Below are positions 4,632 through 51,179 of a stretch of 64,000 bases of DNA, one piece after another. The position numbers and the translations under genes were made by a program. Numbering within the stretch: the first letter of the stretch is position 1; each line of letters opens with the position of its first letter. The notes beneath the pieces were generated by a model. It was not told the DNA's origin. It was given only the letters and a program-made list of their open reading frames with translations, and did no database searches. The DNA is from Planctomycetota bacterium (GTDB lineage: Bacteria; Planctomycetota; UBA8742; UBA2392). The DNA lies in assembly GCA_019186845.1 (NCBI GenBank), contig JABARW010000021.1, positions 1-64,000 on the forward strand, given 5' to 3'.

Positions 4632-7343
4632 CTAGCCCGGCAAACCTCCTCGAATCTGACGGTCGTACTCTTCAATGATTCGCGCCAGCAGGCTCATGCG
4701 AACCGGCGCCTGCGAGCCTTGACGACCGGGCTTATTTCCTTCGCGCGCCCTTCGCCGGGCATCGCGGGCTTCCTTTCGGTAAGCGTCAATGTTGCCCAGG
4801 ATCAAAAGTCCCTTCTTGGCCCTTGTCAGCGCGACATTCCACCGCTTGGGGCTGTCCATGAACGCTGATGCACTCCTGCGGACCAAGTTGATAATGACGT
4901 TGTCCATCTCCCGGCCTTGGCACTTGTCCAACGTGCAGATTTCCGGTTCGGCTAGACTTGGAAACCTGGATTTCCAATTGGCGAATGTTTCCTTGAGCAG
5001 CGATTCATGCCTGCCGTAGGGCGTGATGATCATGACGCTGAAATCACTTTCCCTTTGCCTTGAAATTGCGGCCTCAGCCATCTGAGTCACCAAAGCGAAT
5101 GTCCGCTCTGCCTCCTCACGGTTCGCCTCGCCGTCGCCTTTGGAGTCCACCTGGCACAAGCCCGCGCCGCAATACTGATCCTTGCAGGATTTGCCGTCCA
5201 ATAGGGCTTCCCCGCCATAGAACAGCTTCCGCGGCACGCCGGAGATGCTGGGGTGCATTCGGTATTGCTTCTTCAAGCGGCCCACAAATGGCCGCACGAG
5301 GTCGATCAAGTCCGAGGGAAGCCGATCTTTCAACTGGCTTAAAGGCGGAGCCTTGAATGCCGAGGTCTGCACACCTGTGAGCCAATCGAACACCGAGAGG
5401 GAATTGACGGCGAAGCGCTGCGCAACTGTTGCCGCGAGACCAGCCGAAACGAGCAAGCCGAGCAGCTTTGGTTCACACGGCAGCTTGAGAACCTGGTTGT
5501 TCGCGCTCATCCAGGGCAGCGTGTGGAATTCGCCATACATTCCGTCAAACAGCACGGCTTGGCAGCGCCTGCCCTCATCCACCAGACGAATGCCCGATGC
5601 GAATGCCGGGCGATGAACTCCAATGCCGCGTTCAACAAGAAGGCTCGCTTCCCGAGAGGTGTTGGTTGCGTCCGAACTCGGCCCTGCTTGTGCCAGTGGC
5701 GGAATAGCTGAGTGAAGCTCCTGCGGCGAACAGACCAAGACTTCCGGCTGAGCGGTCAAGGACGCTGGATTGCGATCGTCGCCGGCGGCGTTGCTGAAAA
5801 CGCGAACCCGTGGCACAAGCATTTGCGGGCAGACTGACTGAACGGATTTCAATAGGCTGGAGAAACGATTGAGCAATCCTTGGGGTGAACGGGCAACGAC
5901 AACCAGGGAGGTGGAGGGCGTGTTTCCGGACTTTCGATTGGAATGATAGGTCAAAATGGATGCGGCAAGTTCTTGTTCGGAGTCAAATACGTCGTCGAGC
6001 GTGGCGCCGTTGTCCTCGGCGTTGCTGTATGGCGGCAATTGTTCGGGATCGCCGACAAGAACCCAGCGCTTCGCCTTGACGGCAATCGCCAGGAACTCCG
6101 GCAGCGTCATCTTCGAGACTTCGTCAACGATCAGAACGTCGAAAGTTCCTGGTGCAGCGTCCTTCACGCTACTGCAAGACAAAATGCCGATGGGCGTACC
6201 GCATACAACTTGTTCGCATTGCATGACTGCCGCCGTGATGCCCCCAGTAGTGGAATCCGTCGGCGTCTCGTCGGCAAACAAGCCGCGTGCTTCGGGAATG
6301 GCGTTCTCAAGGCAGTGCTGAACGCGCCGGGCAACTGTTGACGACCTGTTTTCCCTTTTTGAACTTACCCAGTACGGCTTTGCCTCGGGGAGAGAAACGG
6401 AAGTCTCGCGACTCGCGTAGCGAATCGGCAGCGACATGGGCGCCAGTGGGTCGCTCCCGCAATCTCCGTCCGCAGGTACGAGCTTCTTGACTACGTTATC
6501 GACGGCAACATGAGTCGGGGAGACAATCAGCACCCGTTCGTCCGCCTCGACGGCAAGGCGCACAATCTCCGTGATCACCGTCGTCTTTCCCGCTCCCGGC
6601 GGTCCCTGAATTACCGCGAAGTGCGGAGTTTTCCGGGAGAGCTGAATGCACTCGCGCTGGTACTCGTCAACTCCGGTCTTGATCGCATCAAGCGCGAGCG
6701 GGGCACGCGGTGCCATGTGCTCGGCCAGCGGAGATTCCGGAAGACCAACCAGCATCCGCAATGGCGACAGAATCGAACCAGGTGCTTGAGCTTCCAGCAC
6801 GTCGAGAGCTGCCAGTTGGCGTTCGATCTGCACCAGGTTGGGCACGACCGCAACTGCAGCGATCACATCGCGATTTTTCGGGCTTTCGGCGACGGTCAAC
6901 TCCGTCACCCGCTCACTCCCGCCAATGAACTCGCGCCGAAACGAGACGAGCGTGGCGTCTTCGGGGGCGGGGTTCAGCCCGAGAAACTCGCGTGGCGCCC
7001 GCATAAGAAGTTTCCTTTGCTGGTCCGTCAGAAACACAACCCTCTGGTCTATCGTGCCTTTGACAGCCTGGAGAATTTCCTTCTCACAGCCGCGCCATGC
7101 GTCATCGTAATCAATGCGGACTCTGAGGGACCAGTTTCCGGACTCGCCCTCCTCACGCCAGGAACGCTGCGCACTGTCCACCGCGTTGGCCGCATTGGCC
7201 AAAATGCCAAAGAGAAAGGGCACATTTCGCGGAGGTTCTTTGTCTGGAGCGCTTTGCTCAATGTCCGCGATCAGCGGATTCTTCAACAGGCCCTCCAGCT
7301 TCGCATGAAGGCTGGCTTTGATCGCCGGTACATGGTTTTCCAT
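4632..7343 (-). CDS. SF1 DNA2/NAM7-type helicase with large internal insertion
   Basis: A 903-residue superfamily 1 helicase that would unwind DNA or RNA using ATP. Motif I GPPGAGKT is at residues 247-254, motif Ia is VSPTHVAVDNVV, motif II DEVSK is near 405, motif III is GDPEQLPPY, motif IV QYRMHPSI is near 694, motif V is LDKCQGREMDNVI near 808, and motif VI is NVALTRAKKGLLIL near 838. About 250 residues with no obvious helicase sequence lie between motifs III and IV, more than in compact relatives. The N-terminal 230 residues are unrecognised. The ATG lies two bases after the upstream stop, and its GGAGG overlaps that stop, so translation is probably coupled. The context (unknown protein, DUF4258-like protein, winged helix) resembles a mobile or defence cassette, but this is inference. 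Confidence 0.88.
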   Translation of the reverse strand: MENHVPAIKASLHAKLEGLLKNPLIADIEQSAPDKEPPRNVPFLFGILANAANAVDSAQRSWREEGESGNWSLRVRIDYDDAWRGCEKEILQAVKGTIDQRVVFLTDQQRKLLMRAPREFLGLNPAPEDATLVSFRREFIGGSERVTELTVAESPKNRDVIAAVAVVPNLVQIERQLAALDVLEAQAPGSILSPLRMLVGLPESPLAEHMAPRAPLALDAIKTGVDEYQRECIQLSRKTPHFAVIQGPPGAGKTTVITEIVRLAVEADERVLIVSPTHVAVDNVVKKLVPADGDCGSDPLAPMSLPIRYASRETSVSLPEAKPYWVSSKRENRSSTVARRVQHCLENAIPEARGLFADETPTDSTTGGITAAVMQCEQVVCGTPIGILSCSSVKDAAPGTFDVLIVDEVSKMTLPEFLAIAVKAKRWVLVGDPEQLPPYSNAEDNGATLDDVFDSEQELAASILTYHSNRKSGNTPSTSLVVVARSPQGLLNRFSSLLKSVQSVCPQMLVPRVRVFSNAAGDDRNPASLTAQPEVLVCSPQELHSAIPPLAQAGPSSDATNTSREASLLVERGIGVHRPAFASGIRLVDEGRRCQAVLFDGMYGEFHTLPWMSANNQVLKLPCEPKLLGLLVSAGLAATVAQRFAVNSLSVFDWLTGVQTSAFKAPPLSQLKDRLPSDLIDLVRPFVGRLKKQYRMHPSISGVPRKLFYGGEALLDGKSCKDQYCGAGLCQVDSKGDGEANREEAERTFALVTQMAEAAISRQRESDFSVMIITPYGRHESLLKETFANWKSRFPSLAEPEICTLDKCQGREMDNVIINLVRRSASAFMDSPKRWNVALTRAKKGLLILGNIDAYRKEARDARRRAREGNKPGRQGSQAPVRMSLLARIIEEYDRQIRGGLPG

Positions 7344-7345
7344 AA

Positions 7346-7648
7346 CTACCTCCAGTGGCGCATGGGACGTGCGCGGCGATAGGCCGTTACGCAGCGGCCT
7401 TCGACGAACACCAGAACGATGTTTGTGAGGTGGTCCAGTCTGCGGCCGAGATCCCTGGCCGCCTCAACTACGGCCCGCCAGCCGAAGTGAAAAATCAGCG
7501 CGCCGCCCGGCCCGTGGTAGCAGCTTCCAAACCGGCACACGCAATCAACGTCGAGGGTTCGAATTCCCCGCTGCTGACAGCGGACCTTCAGGTGGAGCGT
7601 GTCGGTGTCCTTTGCGCGGCGCCGAAGTCCCGAGATATTCGCTTGCAT
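7346..7648 (-). CDS. DUF4258-like small protein
   Basis: A 100-residue protein. The pattern LHLKVRCQQRGI, CRFGSCYHG, IFHFGW and a final LVFVEGRCVTAYRR follows the order of the DUF4258 fold: HxxxRxxQRGI, a Gly turn, then a closing beta-hairpin ending VTxYR. Members of that fold often resemble RelE/BrnT-type nucleases. The usual histidine near the QRGI motif is present as HLKVR. The ATG at 7648 has AGGGGG upstream; a TTG at 7669 is a less likely start. It is coupled to the helicase gene. Assignment by pattern only; a toxin function is not shown. Confidence 0.55.
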   Translation of the reverse strand: MQANISGLRRRAKDTDTLHLKVRCQQRGIRTLDVDCVCRFGSCYHGPGGALIFHFGWRAVVEAARDLGRRLDHLTNIVLVFVEGRCVTAYRRARPMRHWR

Positions 7649-7741: not shown

Positions 7742-8218
7742 TTACGACTTTCTTTGACCGGATTCCGGCACGCGTTCCCACCAGCCGCGCGCGCCGCCTT
7801 CTTCGGCGCGCTGGAACTGGTCGGTGTTCGACTCCAGTATGCGCTCGATGCGCTCCTTGGGCTCATTGAGCAAGTAGGCCAAGTCTTGCGGGCGGCGATT
7901 CTTCTTGATCAACAAGCGGCGAATTTCGCCCACAAGTTCCTGATCGCTGAGGTGGCCCGCCGGGCGGCGCAACTCCGTGCTGGTGGAGTAGCCGGGCACT
8001 TCGAAGCCCGAGTCCTCCATCATTTGCTTTTCAAATGCCTGCGCCTGCGCACGCATGGATTCGAGTATGCCCGGCGGGATTGCGCCTGCCGCAGCCTTCA
8101 ACGTGTTGATGACGGGCTCCCAAGTCCCGACCATGTGCGTCCACAACTGCGCCCGGCGTTTCCACAAGCGCAGGAGTGCTTCCGCATCGCCTGGCTCGGC
8201 CGTTACAGAGTCTGTCAT
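7742..8218 (-). CDS. Protein of unknown function heading the helicase cassette
   Basis: This 158-residue protein is predicted to be mostly helical and soluble, with no signal peptide or membrane segment. Residues 10-80 are amphipathic and Trp/Ala-rich. Residues 95-140 (HLSDQELVGEIRRLLIKK, then DLAYLLNEPKERIERILE) look like a helix-turn-helix-type segment. I do not recognise the family. It starts the minus-strand cassette and is preceded by a pair of 10-base direct repeats that could be its operator. The gene looks real, but its function cannot be assigned. Confidence 0.6.
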   Translation of the reverse strand: MTDSVTAEPGDAEALLRLWKRRAQLWTHMVGTWEPVINTLKAAAGAIPPGILESMRAQAQAFEKQMMEDSGFEVPGYSTSTELRRPAGHLSDQELVGEIRRLLIKKNRRPQDLAYLLNEPKERIERILESNTDQFQRAEEGGARGWWERVPESGQRKS

Positions 8219-8227
8219 TGTTTTGCC

Positions 8228-8283
8228 CCATTGGTTAGACAGGCCATAAGATACAGATATCTAAGACTGTTCGCCATTGGTTA
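8228..8283. promoter_or_regulatory. Pair of 10-base direct repeats in the cassette promoter region
   Basis: CCATTGGTTA occurs at 8228-8237 and again at 8274-8283, flanking an AT-rich segment that includes the palindrome AGATATCT. The pair sits immediately upstream of the minus-strand gene starting at 8218. This suggests an operator, possibly for the cassette's own winged-helix protein. Confidence 0.35.
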
Positions 8284-8368
8284 AATGCTGGAAATCGCTC
8301 CATCAAGGCCGACGGAGGCTTGCACCCTTCAAGTTGAGGGAGCCTGGCCAAGCATTCGCTTTCAGGGG

Positions 8369-9457
8369 TCAGCCGACGACCACGCGGTTGCGGCCGCTTT
8401 CCTTGGCCTTGTAGAGCGCTTCGTCGGCCCGTTCCAGCGCGCTGAGGATGTCCTCACCCTGACTGTTCACCATCACCTCCGCGCAGCCAATGCTCACAGT
8501 GAACTTCAAAGTCGCCCCCATGGCACGCACCGTCAACTCCGAAAGCGACTTCCTCAAACGCTCGGCCAGCAACGCAGCCCCGTCGCCCCCCGTCTCCGAC
8601 AACAGCACCGCAAACTCCTCGCCGCCCAGGCGCGCCAGCACGTCAAGCTTTCGCAACTGCGGCGCGGCTTGCCTCGCCAGCAACTTGAGCACTTCGTCGC
8701 CCACGGGGTGGCCATAGGTGTCATTGATCTTCTTGAAATGGTCGATGTCGAGCATCAGCACCGAAAGAGGCTTGCTGTAGCGCCTTGCGCGGGCCAGCTC
8801 ACGCTCGGCGGTCTCAATGAAATAGCGGCGGTTGTAAAGCCCCGTGAGCGGGTCCGTGGTGGCTGCCCGCTCCAGCTGAACCTCCAGCAGGAACGCGCGC
8901 AGGTGGCGCTGCTCAAGAAAGAAACTCAAAAGCACGGCCAGCGCCATGGAGGCCACCAGAAAGCCGTTGATCTGCGCGAAGGTGAACCAGCCTTGACCTG
9001 TCAAGAGCACAACGAAGTTCGCCGCCGCCAGCACCACGAGCGAACCATTCAGTGCACCGCGCCACGACGGCGTAATCGCCACCCCGGCAAACACCACCAT
9101 GGTCAGGCCCGCGATGCCAAGGTCAAATCCCCTGGGCAGCAAGGCCAAGACGATGGCCACGCCAAAACCCGCCGTCAACGAGGCCAGCAGGTTCAGCAGA
9201 TTCAGGCGGCGCGAAGCGACAACCGAGCGCGAAAAGAAGTACAGGGCGGCAAAACTCGCGCTGCAGGCCGCGCGCACGGGCAGCGTGCGGAAGATCGCCC
9301 CGGAGTCGAGCAGGGCATCCCAGGCCACAAAGAGCAGCATGAGTGCCGCGCCGGCAAAGTAGGCCATTCGGGCGATGGGCAGCGTGCGCTCTCCTTGGGT
9401 ACGCCGGTAGCGTTCGAGCAATGCGCCGTCAAGTTGGGGCAGGGCGCCCGTGGTCAT
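8369..9457 (-). CDS. Membrane-bound diguanylate cyclase (GGDEF)
   Basis: Makes cyclic di-GMP from two GTP. The 362-residue protein has about five or six hydrophobic helices in residues 25-180, a short linker, and a C-terminal GGDEF domain. The domain carries DPLTGLYNRRYF at its start and an active GGEEF signature at about 278-282. An RxxD allosteric inhibition site (RKLD, about 269-272) lies five residues before GGEEF, so product feedback is expected. The ATG at 9457 is chosen over a TTG at 9475. No phosphodiesterase or sensory partner is adjacent. Confidence 0.93.
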   Translation of the reverse strand: MTTGALPQLDGALLERYRRTQGERTLPIARMAYFAGAALMLLFVAWDALLDSGAIFRTLPVRAACSASFAALYFFSRSVVASRRLNLLNLLASLTAGFGVAIVLALLPRGFDLGIAGLTMVVFAGVAITPSWRGALNGSLVVLAAANFVVLLTGQGWFTFAQINGFLVASMALAVLLSFFLEQRHLRAFLLEVQLERAATTDPLTGLYNRRYFIETAERELARARRYSKPLSVLMLDIDHFKKINDTYGHPVGDEVLKLLARQAAPQLRKLDVLARLGGEEFAVLLSETGGDGAALLAERLRKSLSELTVRAMGATLKFTVSIGCAEVMVNSQGEDILSALERADEALYKAKESGRNRVVVG

Positions 9458-48888: not shown

Positions 48889-49872
48889 CTACTTCTCGTC
48901 CTTCTCAAGATGTTCCAGCAGTTCCTTGGCCTGCTTGACCCAATCATGATCCGCGGGCCCGGCCTCAATCACGGCCTTGGTTTCCTTGATGGCCCCTGCC
49001 TTGTCGCCGGACTGGAACAACAGGTAGGCGGCATAGACACGGTACTCGATGGCCTTGGCATGCTTGGGAAACGCGGCCACGCAGGTCAACAGCACTTCGC
49101 GGGCTTCCTTGTACTCTTCCTTCTGCCAGTGACCCATCATCACGCCATGTACGGACTCCATGGCCCGCTCATCTTTGGCCTCAAGAAACACCTTCGTCAG
49201 CTCCTTGCACAACTCGACGCCGCGCTCGCTGTCGAGCTCGCCCTTGAACAGCGCATCGGCAAGCTTGAGCTTCACATCGTTGACGCGCTTGTCGTCCTTG
49301 GCAAGGCCGGCCAGAACCGTGTCAAGCAGCTTGGCCGCGTCGGCGTGACGGGAGAGTTTGGCGTAGGTGTCCGCCAGCTTGAGGGAGAGGTCGACGTTCT
49401 TGGAGTCCTTGGCCAGCTCCGCTTCCAGCTTCTCGACATCCTTCAGCGCGGTCGAGATGTCGTCGAACCACTTCAGGGCCTCTTCGGCCGTAGAAAACGG
49501 AGCGCCCACCTGTGTGATGAGGGCCTTCTCCTTGGCGTCAGCGATGACCAGCGTCGGCATGGCCGATACGCCGTACTTCTTGGGCGTAGCCTGATCCTTG
49601 TCCACGTCGATCAAAATGGCTACGAAGTCTTTCGCGATGCGCTCTCCGAGCGCCTTGTCCGGCCACACGTTCTTGGCCAGCCGCTTGCAGGGACCTCACC
49701 ACTCCGCCGTGAACTCGATGAACATCAGCTTGTTGGACTTGGCAGCCGCCTCGAGACCCTTCTTGTAGTCGGTCTCCCATTTGACTCCCCCGGCACTGTC
49801 GCCGGCAAGGAGCGGGGCGCAGCAAAGCACCACAAGCAGGGCCGCCAGGCCCGCCGTAACCGCATTGCGCAT
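48889..49872 (-). CDS. Secreted selenocysteine-type thioredoxin with TPR region
   Basis: 327 codons from ATG 49872 (AGGAG seven bases upstream) with an in-frame TGA at 49696-49698, codon 59. The surrounding product reads FIEFTAEW-TGA-GPCKRLAKN. The TGA therefore replaces the first Cys of the canonical thioredoxin WCGPCK motif, and the frame stays open on both sides with full homology (AILIDVDKDQATPKKYGVSA, then cis-Pro PTLVI). Residues 1-23 form a signal peptide. Residues 150-325 are helical TPR-like repeats. A hairpin with a G in its apical loop lies 22 bases after the TGA. Selenocysteine insertion is the best explanation; a nonsense mutation or a C-to-A sequencing error is the alternative. 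No sel genes are in the window. Confidence 0.78.
49659..49680 (-). promoter_or_regulatory. SECIS-like hairpin downstream of the in-frame TGA
   Basis: On the minus strand CTGGCCA (49680-49674) pairs with TGGCCGG (49665-49659) around the loop AGAACGTG. One pair is U-G. The loop begins 22 bases after the TGA and has G as its second base. Both features agree with the published bacterial SECIS pattern (loop 16-37 bases from UGA, G in the first two loop positions). Confidence 0.55.
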
Positions 49873-50001
49873 GCAGCATCTCCTGAAAAGTGAACGGCCC
49901 GCAGCCCCTGCTGCGGACCCTCTGTTCATACGAAATTGAACGGTTCGGGCGCAGGTTTTTCTGATAAAGGCACGGCACCCACAGGGCCCCGTTGCGCCGC
50001 G

Positions 50002-51024
50002 CTACTCGGAAAGAAGCTTGACCAACAGGGCCTTCTGCGCGTGCAGGCGGTTCTCGGCCTGCTGGTACACCACGCAATCTTCGCCGTCAAGCACAGCATC
50101 GTCCACCACCACGTTGCGGCGTACCGGCAGGCAGTGCATGAACTTGGCGCGGCTGGTGGCGGCCATTTTTTCTTCCGTGACCGTCCAGCTTGGAAGGGTG
50201 GCGCGATAGGCCATCTCGTCCTTGGGGCGGCCGTAGAACTCGCGGGACAACCAGCTCTTGGCGTAGATGACCTCAGCGCCGTCAAAGGCCGCCGACTGGT
50301 CGTGGGTAACTTCGACCTTGCCCCCCGCCTGCCTGGCGACCTGCTTGGCCTGCTCCACCAGCCCGGGTTCCAGGTCCATCTTCGGCGGGTGGGCGACCAC
50401 CACGTTGCAGCCGCCCATGGCCGCGGCCATCAGAAAGGAGTGGGGCACCGCCAGAGGCAGGGGCTTGATGTGGGGAGCCCAGGTCAGCACAACTTTCTTT
50501 CTGCGCGTGACCCCATTGAAGACTTCGCGCAGGGTCATGAGGTCCGCCAGGCCCTGGCAGGGATGCTCAACAGCGCTCTCCAGGTTGATCAGGGGCGTGC
50601 TGCTGTAGTTGGAGAACGCCGAGAGAATGGGATCGGCCCGATCTTCCTCGTAGCTCTGCATCTTGGGAAAGCTGCGCACGGCGATCACGTCGCCGTAGCG
50701 CGAGAGTACCTTGGCCGCGTCCTTGATGTGCTCGGGGCGGTCGCCGTTCATGACGATGCCCTCTTTCCACTCGAGGTCCCAGGAATCCTGGCCGACGTTG
50801 AGCACCACGGGATGAGCGCCGAGCTGATAGGTTCCGATTTCAAAGCTGGTGCGGGTGCGCAGGCTGCTGTTGAAGAACAGCATGATGACCGTCTTGCCGG
50901 CGAGCGACCAGGAGCGCTGCTCCTTCTTCATCTCCGAAGCGAGGTCGATGATCGAGTTGATTTCCTCGGCTGAGAAGTCCGACAGGCGAAGAAAGTCGCG
51001 TCCGCGAATGTCCACTTTCGGCAT
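50002..51024 (-). CDS. N-acetyl- or N-succinylornithine carbamoyltransferase-like transcarbamylase
   Basis: 340 residues from ATG 51024 (AGGGGAC upstream). The carbamoyl-phosphate site FNSSLRTRTSFE corresponds to SxRT. The DLEWKEGIVMNG and VRSFP segments and the closing HCLPVRRNVVVDDAVLD are typical of the acetylornithine/succinylornithine group rather than canonical ArgF, which has HCLP followed by other residues. It would carbamoylate an acylated ornithine for arginine synthesis. No other arg genes are adjacent. Substrate specificity should be considered provisional. Confidence 0.85.
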   Translation of the reverse strand: MPKVDIRGRDFLRLSDFSAEEINSIIDLASEMKKEQRSWSLAGKTVIMLFFNSSLRTRTSFEIGTYQLGAHPVVLNVGQDSWDLEWKEGIVMNGDRPEHIKDAAKVLSRYGDVIAVRSFPKMQSYEEDRADPILSAFSNYSSTPLINLESAVEHPCQGLADLMTLREVFNGVTRRKKVVLTWAPHIKPLPLAVPHSFLMAAAMGGCNVVVAHPPKMDLEPGLVEQAKQVARQAGGKVEVTHDQSAAFDGAEVIYAKSWLSREFYGRPKDEMAYRATLPSWTVTEEKMAATSRAKFMHCLPVRRNVVVDDAVLDGEDCVVYQQAENRLHAQKALLVKLLSE

Positions 51025-51179
51025 GGCTGCGTCCCCTGAAGATTGCGCGGGAATCATGCGATTAATCCGGCGCGTGTAAAGCGGCCCTGTCCCCCGACAC
51101 CGCAGCCAAGCGGCCCCTTTGATGGAACCTAGCACCTGCCCCCCGCTTTCTTACACTGTGGCCTCGCTGAGGGGCAGCC

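Follow-up and report, generated by a model that had tools for sequence, protein, structure and literature searches.

From the reading frame, the selenocysteine (Sec) machinery of the genome, conservation, domains and a predicted fold, we infer that a gene of an uncultured Planctomycetota lineage very probably encodes an exported selenoprotein, in which UGA codon 59 specifies Sec in the U-G-P-C active site of a thioredoxin fold followed by a TPR-like domain, and which would have a redox role on client proteins. The gene occupies 48889..49872 of the window, by which we mean the whole stretch of 64,000 nucleotides that was analysed (contig JABARW010000021.1, assembly GCA_019186845.1). An earlier note on this DNA had placed a probable selenoprotein at these coordinates with no strand given; the coordinates hold, with the gene encoded by the minus strand, and the reading is supported by the machinery, the conserved TGA and the exchange of Cys and Sec among homologues. 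The case for Sec rests on these three, not on the hairpin that follows the UGA.

Read on the minus strand from 49872 to 48889, the translated frame runs from ATG to TAG (stop at 48889-48891), its sole interruption being the TGA of codon 59 (49696..49698), and with this codon as Sec the protein has 327 residues, in keeping with the orthologue alignment. The predicted Sec is the first residue of the UGPC site and stands at the position of the catalytic Cys of thioredoxins (EFTAEW-U-GPCKRL), and the resolving Cys, codon 62 (49687..49689, minus), is invariant in the orthologue alignment. A Shine-Dalgarno sequence, AGGAG, lies 7 nt 5' of the ATG (49880..49884, minus). The earlier note had read the motif as W-TGA-GPCK, described a good ribosome site before the start and predicted that automatic annotation would split the gene, all of which agrees with what we see: standard-code ORF calling breaks it into a 77-aa ORF that ends at 49696 and a 259-aa ORF that starts from GTG at 49668. 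Just upstream, on the same strand, lies a gene that we named by eye as ornithine/aspartate carbamoyltransferase-like (50002-51135), and part of apparently the same gene is found upstream of the orthologues in two other loci (L022 and L031).

The existence of these two ORFs might suggest two products: a small secreted peptide terminated by the UGA, and a downstream protein initiated at the internal GTG. Yet the break lies within the thioredoxin active site, the codons between the TGA and the GTG (60-68) belong to the conserved active-site stretch, and the downstream ORF would have neither a signal peptide nor half of the fold. We regard this arrangement as very improbable.

A single protein read through the TGA fits the coding signal on both sides of it. 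When 319 TGAs of the window were scored by codon usage (six frames on both strands, with open flanks of at least 25 codons before and at least 40 after), and ranked by the lower of the two sides, the TGA at 49698 came first, and no other of the 319 had a comparable score on both sides; the score was trained on 36 long ORFs of the window picked by length alone, some of which may be shadow ORFs. Comparisons of the source genome with two relatives of the same genus gave dN/dS values 3' of the TGA of 0.085 (267 codons) and 0.105 (266 codons). Strong purifying selection thus acts downstream of the TGA, which indicates that this part is translated and constrained. The in-frame UGA is therefore flanked by homologous, constrained coding sequence on both sides, as expected of a bacterial selenoprotein, and the open and homologous frame described in the earlier note is borne out by the top two-sided score and by the retention of the TGA in orthologues.

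In a protein search of 149 genomes, 12 genomes of the source family, its own included, had an orthologue, either full or partial (G000 to G004, G006 to G010, G012 and G013); the other family genomes, G005, G011, G014 and G015, gave weak matches, to which no orthologue was assigned. All 12 orthologues have TGA at codon 59, and their identity to the window protein ranges from 92 to 33%. At the same column, Cys is found in all six aligned homologues from Bacteroidota and Fimbriimonadaceae, and G010 also has it, in a match of 43% identity, a paralogue within the family. This is the exchange between Cys and Sec that characterizes bacterial selenoproteins and that the earlier note had proposed to look for. 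The same data bear on the idea that a TGC or TGT codon was mutated or misread to TGA, leaving a dead or split gene. Such a change takes one substitution, and the source is a single draft assembly in 89 contigs, but an error at 49696-49698, which the earlier note had named as a possible refutation, is contradicted by the same TGA in 12 separate genomes, with orthologues down to 33% identity, and a dead gene is at odds with dN/dS of about 0.1 downstream of the TGA. We consider a pseudogene or sequencing error extremely unlikely. Genome-wide reassignment of UGA to Trp, Gly or Cys, for which we found nothing in favour, is just as improbable, because 13 of the 32 genes mapped in the window are terminated by TGA, so that UGA is still a stop here, as the earlier note had stated, and because no second TGA of the window reaches a comparable score on both of its sides.

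The machinery to make and insert Sec, whose absence the earlier note had named as a refutation of the reading, is also present. The source genome (G000; 3.74 Mb, 87.7% complete) encodes tRNA-Sec, SelA, SelB and SelD. The tRNA scores 73.7 bits, over the cut-off, and is also called SeC(tca) by ARAGORN; SelA (E 2.3e-139) is encoded within 1 kb of the tRNA gene, on the contig that carries both; SelB scores 318.9 bits, over its cut-off. SelD (E 8.8e-113; L065:458-1390, contig C2) has an in-frame TGA of its own and is a predicted selenoprotein with the active site GAG-U-GCK, as in most of the SelD-bearing relatives listed. Among the 149 genomes, comprising the source and its relatives, SelA is over the cut-off in 111 and SelD in 107, the latter with one in-frame TGA in most of those listed. 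As judged by eye, the TGA-bearing homologues among the matches listed all belong to genomes whose SelA passes the cut-off.

The hairpin downstream of the UGA is consistent with Sec decoding and does not prove it. The putative bSECIS element of the mRNA (49659..49680, minus) is CUGGCCA-AGAACGUG-UGGCCGG, with a 7-bp stem and an 8-nt loop that has G at its second position and begins 22 nt 3' of the UGA. This geometry fits the published bSECIS model, which, in the available text of a 2026 review (PMC13188914), sets a distance of 16 to 37 nt between the UGA and the loop and has G at loop position 1 or 2. The hairpin at 22 bases with a suitable loop reported in the earlier note does exist, but in this single gene it does not reach significance: its fold z-score is +0.24 and the synonymous-codon p is 0.15. 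We found no covariation among eight aligned family orthologues, some of which have lost pairing at four of the seven stem positions. Comparing 23 Sec with 11 Cys homologues, neither folding energy relative to synonymous variants (p = 0.47) nor the energy of the best local hairpin (p = 0.11) separated the groups, whereas a score of uninterrupted stems, the distance between UGA and loop being restricted to 16 to 37 nt, was higher in the Sec group (p = 0.001), a measure that was modelled on the bSECIS description and chosen third, after the other two had failed. With this stem score, the combined p against synonymous variants was 3e-10 for the Sec group and 0.45 for the Cys group; the Sec sequences are related, so that the p-values for hairpins are optimistic and overstate independence. 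A G among the first two loop nucleotides occurs in 21 of the 23 Sec and 2 of the 11 Cys homologues. A consensus folding of the RNA of six phylum-level Sec thioredoxins was dropped, as it placed the stem in two registers one base apart.

The protein has a two-domain organization. Residues 43-121 (49510..49746, minus) form a thioredoxin domain (PF00085, E 1.2e-15, 57.8 bits against a cut-off of 23.5), modelled with pLDDT of about 95, and residues 129-324 (48901..49488, minus) a TPR-like helical domain, part of which is over the cut-off for TPR_19. The AlphaFold2 model, built from eight sequences (mean pLDDT 88), shows a thioredoxin fold and then ten helices, and places residue 59 between the strand 49-55 and the helix 60-68. 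Consistent with a thioredoxin active site, residue 59, P61, C62 and P106-T107 are invariant in the orthologue alignment, W58 and G60 are nearly so, and P106 is, by its position, presumably the cis-Pro of the fold. The N-terminus, MRNAVTAGLAALLVVLCCAPLLAG (49801..49872, minus), resembles a signal peptide when read by eye, includes a low-confidence helix in the model (residues 4-17) and suggests that the protein is exported. The best Foldseek matches include YbbN, which has a thioredoxin domain and TPR, DsbH and many thioredoxins.

How does this protein relate to known systems? The CnoX/YbbN chaperedoxins also have a thioredoxin domain followed by TPR in one chain, and E. coli YbbN (3qou) heads the Foldseek matches, but with 16% identity, TM 0.25 and rmsd 18.8 over the whole chain, values that indicate a different arrangement of the domains. 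CnoX is cytoplasmic and is not known to be a selenoprotein. The Trx7/PDZ selenoprotein (NF041199) is also of thioredoxin type, but the match is weak (E 2.2e-6; 26.8 against a cut-off of 300) and there is no PDZ among the Pfam matches of the window protein. The thiol:disulfide interchange selenoproteins (PF13098) share UxxC in a Thioredoxin_2-type domain, and this profile too is over its cut-off, but PF00085 is the better match. The window protein shares with the Sec-thioredoxins of PF00085 a thioredoxin domain in which U-x-x-C replaces C-x-x-C; it looks exported and has a C-terminal TPR-like domain. Sec-thioredoxin is an experimentally verified family in the available text of the 2026 review (PMC13188914), and selenoproteins and Sec machinery of Planctomycetes are already in print (PMC4807772, as far as its text was available). 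We found no description of a Sec thioredoxin-TPR form in what was accessible of the open-licence literature on thioredoxin or TPR selenoproteins and on Planctomycetes or Planctomycetota, which makes this a new member of a known family. Judging from its sequence, the window protein looks like an exported thioredoxin-TPR form of Sec-thioredoxin in Planctomycetota.

In the mechanism that we propose, SelA and SelD would make the Sec-tRNA(Sec) UCA, SelB would deliver it, and UGA codon 59 would be decoded as Sec with the aid of a hairpin located some 15 to 40 nt further 3'. Sec59 would then attack as the nucleophile in thiol-disulfide exchange with extracytoplasmic proteins, leaving Cys62 to resolve the mixed selenide-sulfide. 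The TPR part may bind partners or clients, as in chaperedoxins. The most likely function is thus thiol-disulfide exchange outside the cytoplasm, with the TPR part holding or recruiting the substrate proteins.

The relatives of the window protein show diverse active sites. Within the phylum these include WUGPCK, WUGACK, UxxU (UGPU, in G016) and vicinal UU (GGGUUG, in G001 and G004). The vicinal TGA-TGA pair stands at the expected thioredoxin active site of two paralogues of the window protein (L051, contig C48 of G004; L057, contig C18 of G001), and G004 has three tandem copies, one with UVPC and two with UU. In two homologues of G016 (L034 and L058), both active-site residues of UGPU are encoded by TGA, and a hairpin with the loop GGUC follows. 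Two secreted proteins (L060 in G015 and L061 in G012) have RCVP-U-VPC and a longer C-terminal part with a CVHCHH motif; they look as if they might be of the Trx7/PDZ selenoprotein type. A paralogue in the source genome (contig C11), marked with one TGA, was rejected as an ordinary Cys thioredoxin (WCGPC) with the TGA outside the active site. A search with a back-translated Cys pattern gave one full-length relative, 75% identical, in a Planctomycetota MAG (JADLFN010000002.1, isolate SJ383) that is apparently the G001 sequence; such a pattern cannot match TGA forms, so that most Sec orthologues are invisible to it. Scans of viral sequences gave distant thioredoxins only, and scans of plasmid sequences six short partial matches only.

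A second group of genes in the source genome is more unusual than the Sec-thioredoxin of the window. Beside selA lie three genes (L067:5722-6606, 6673-7590 and 8001-8846, minus, contig C40; further copies at L273-L304) for secreted proteins, in which TGA comes right after the signal peptide, in SAG-U-C-GPSGGG or KAG-U-U-KGNG. A Gly-rich stretch follows the pair, and then comes a domain that is thioredoxin-like but lacks CxxC; in Pfam and NCBIfam, these three copies matched no family over its cut-off. Matches were found in 20 of the 99 genomes searched, namely all 16 of the source family, at 3 to 8 places per genome, with fragments or weak hits possibly among them, and four others, at E 2.5e-5 to 5e-4 only. 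Seventy distinct copies with E <1e-40 were retrieved from the 16 genomes, in stretches chosen from the stronger matches. By a motif rule, the pair at the putative mature N-terminus is UU in 25, UC in 23 and CU in one; six more have a single U, six a multi-Cys form, and in nine none was found. The available text of the 2026 review (PMC13188914) makes no mention of GUC or of a signal peptide, and the accessible literature on adjacent or consecutive Sec held nothing that fits. Going by its sequences, the group appears to be an undescribed selenoprotein family in which the putative mature protein starts with Sec-Sec or Sec-Cys. It is conceivable, if rather doubtful, that the two groups belong to one exported redox system, based on selenium and specific to this lineage, in which the Sec-thioredoxin reduces, or is reduced by, the vicinal pairs of the selA-linked proteins, present in several copies per genome and having lost CxxC.

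Overall, when TGA is read only as a stop, this gene and its TGA-bearing orthologues would be split, with the consequence that the selenium use of this uncultured Planctomycetota family is probably under-counted. The gene of the window is a clean worked case of an annotation split at Sec. The source lineage seems to use unusually many selenoproteins of the exported thioredoxin-like kind, and its genome points to a far less ordinary set of exported selenoproteins adjoining selA.
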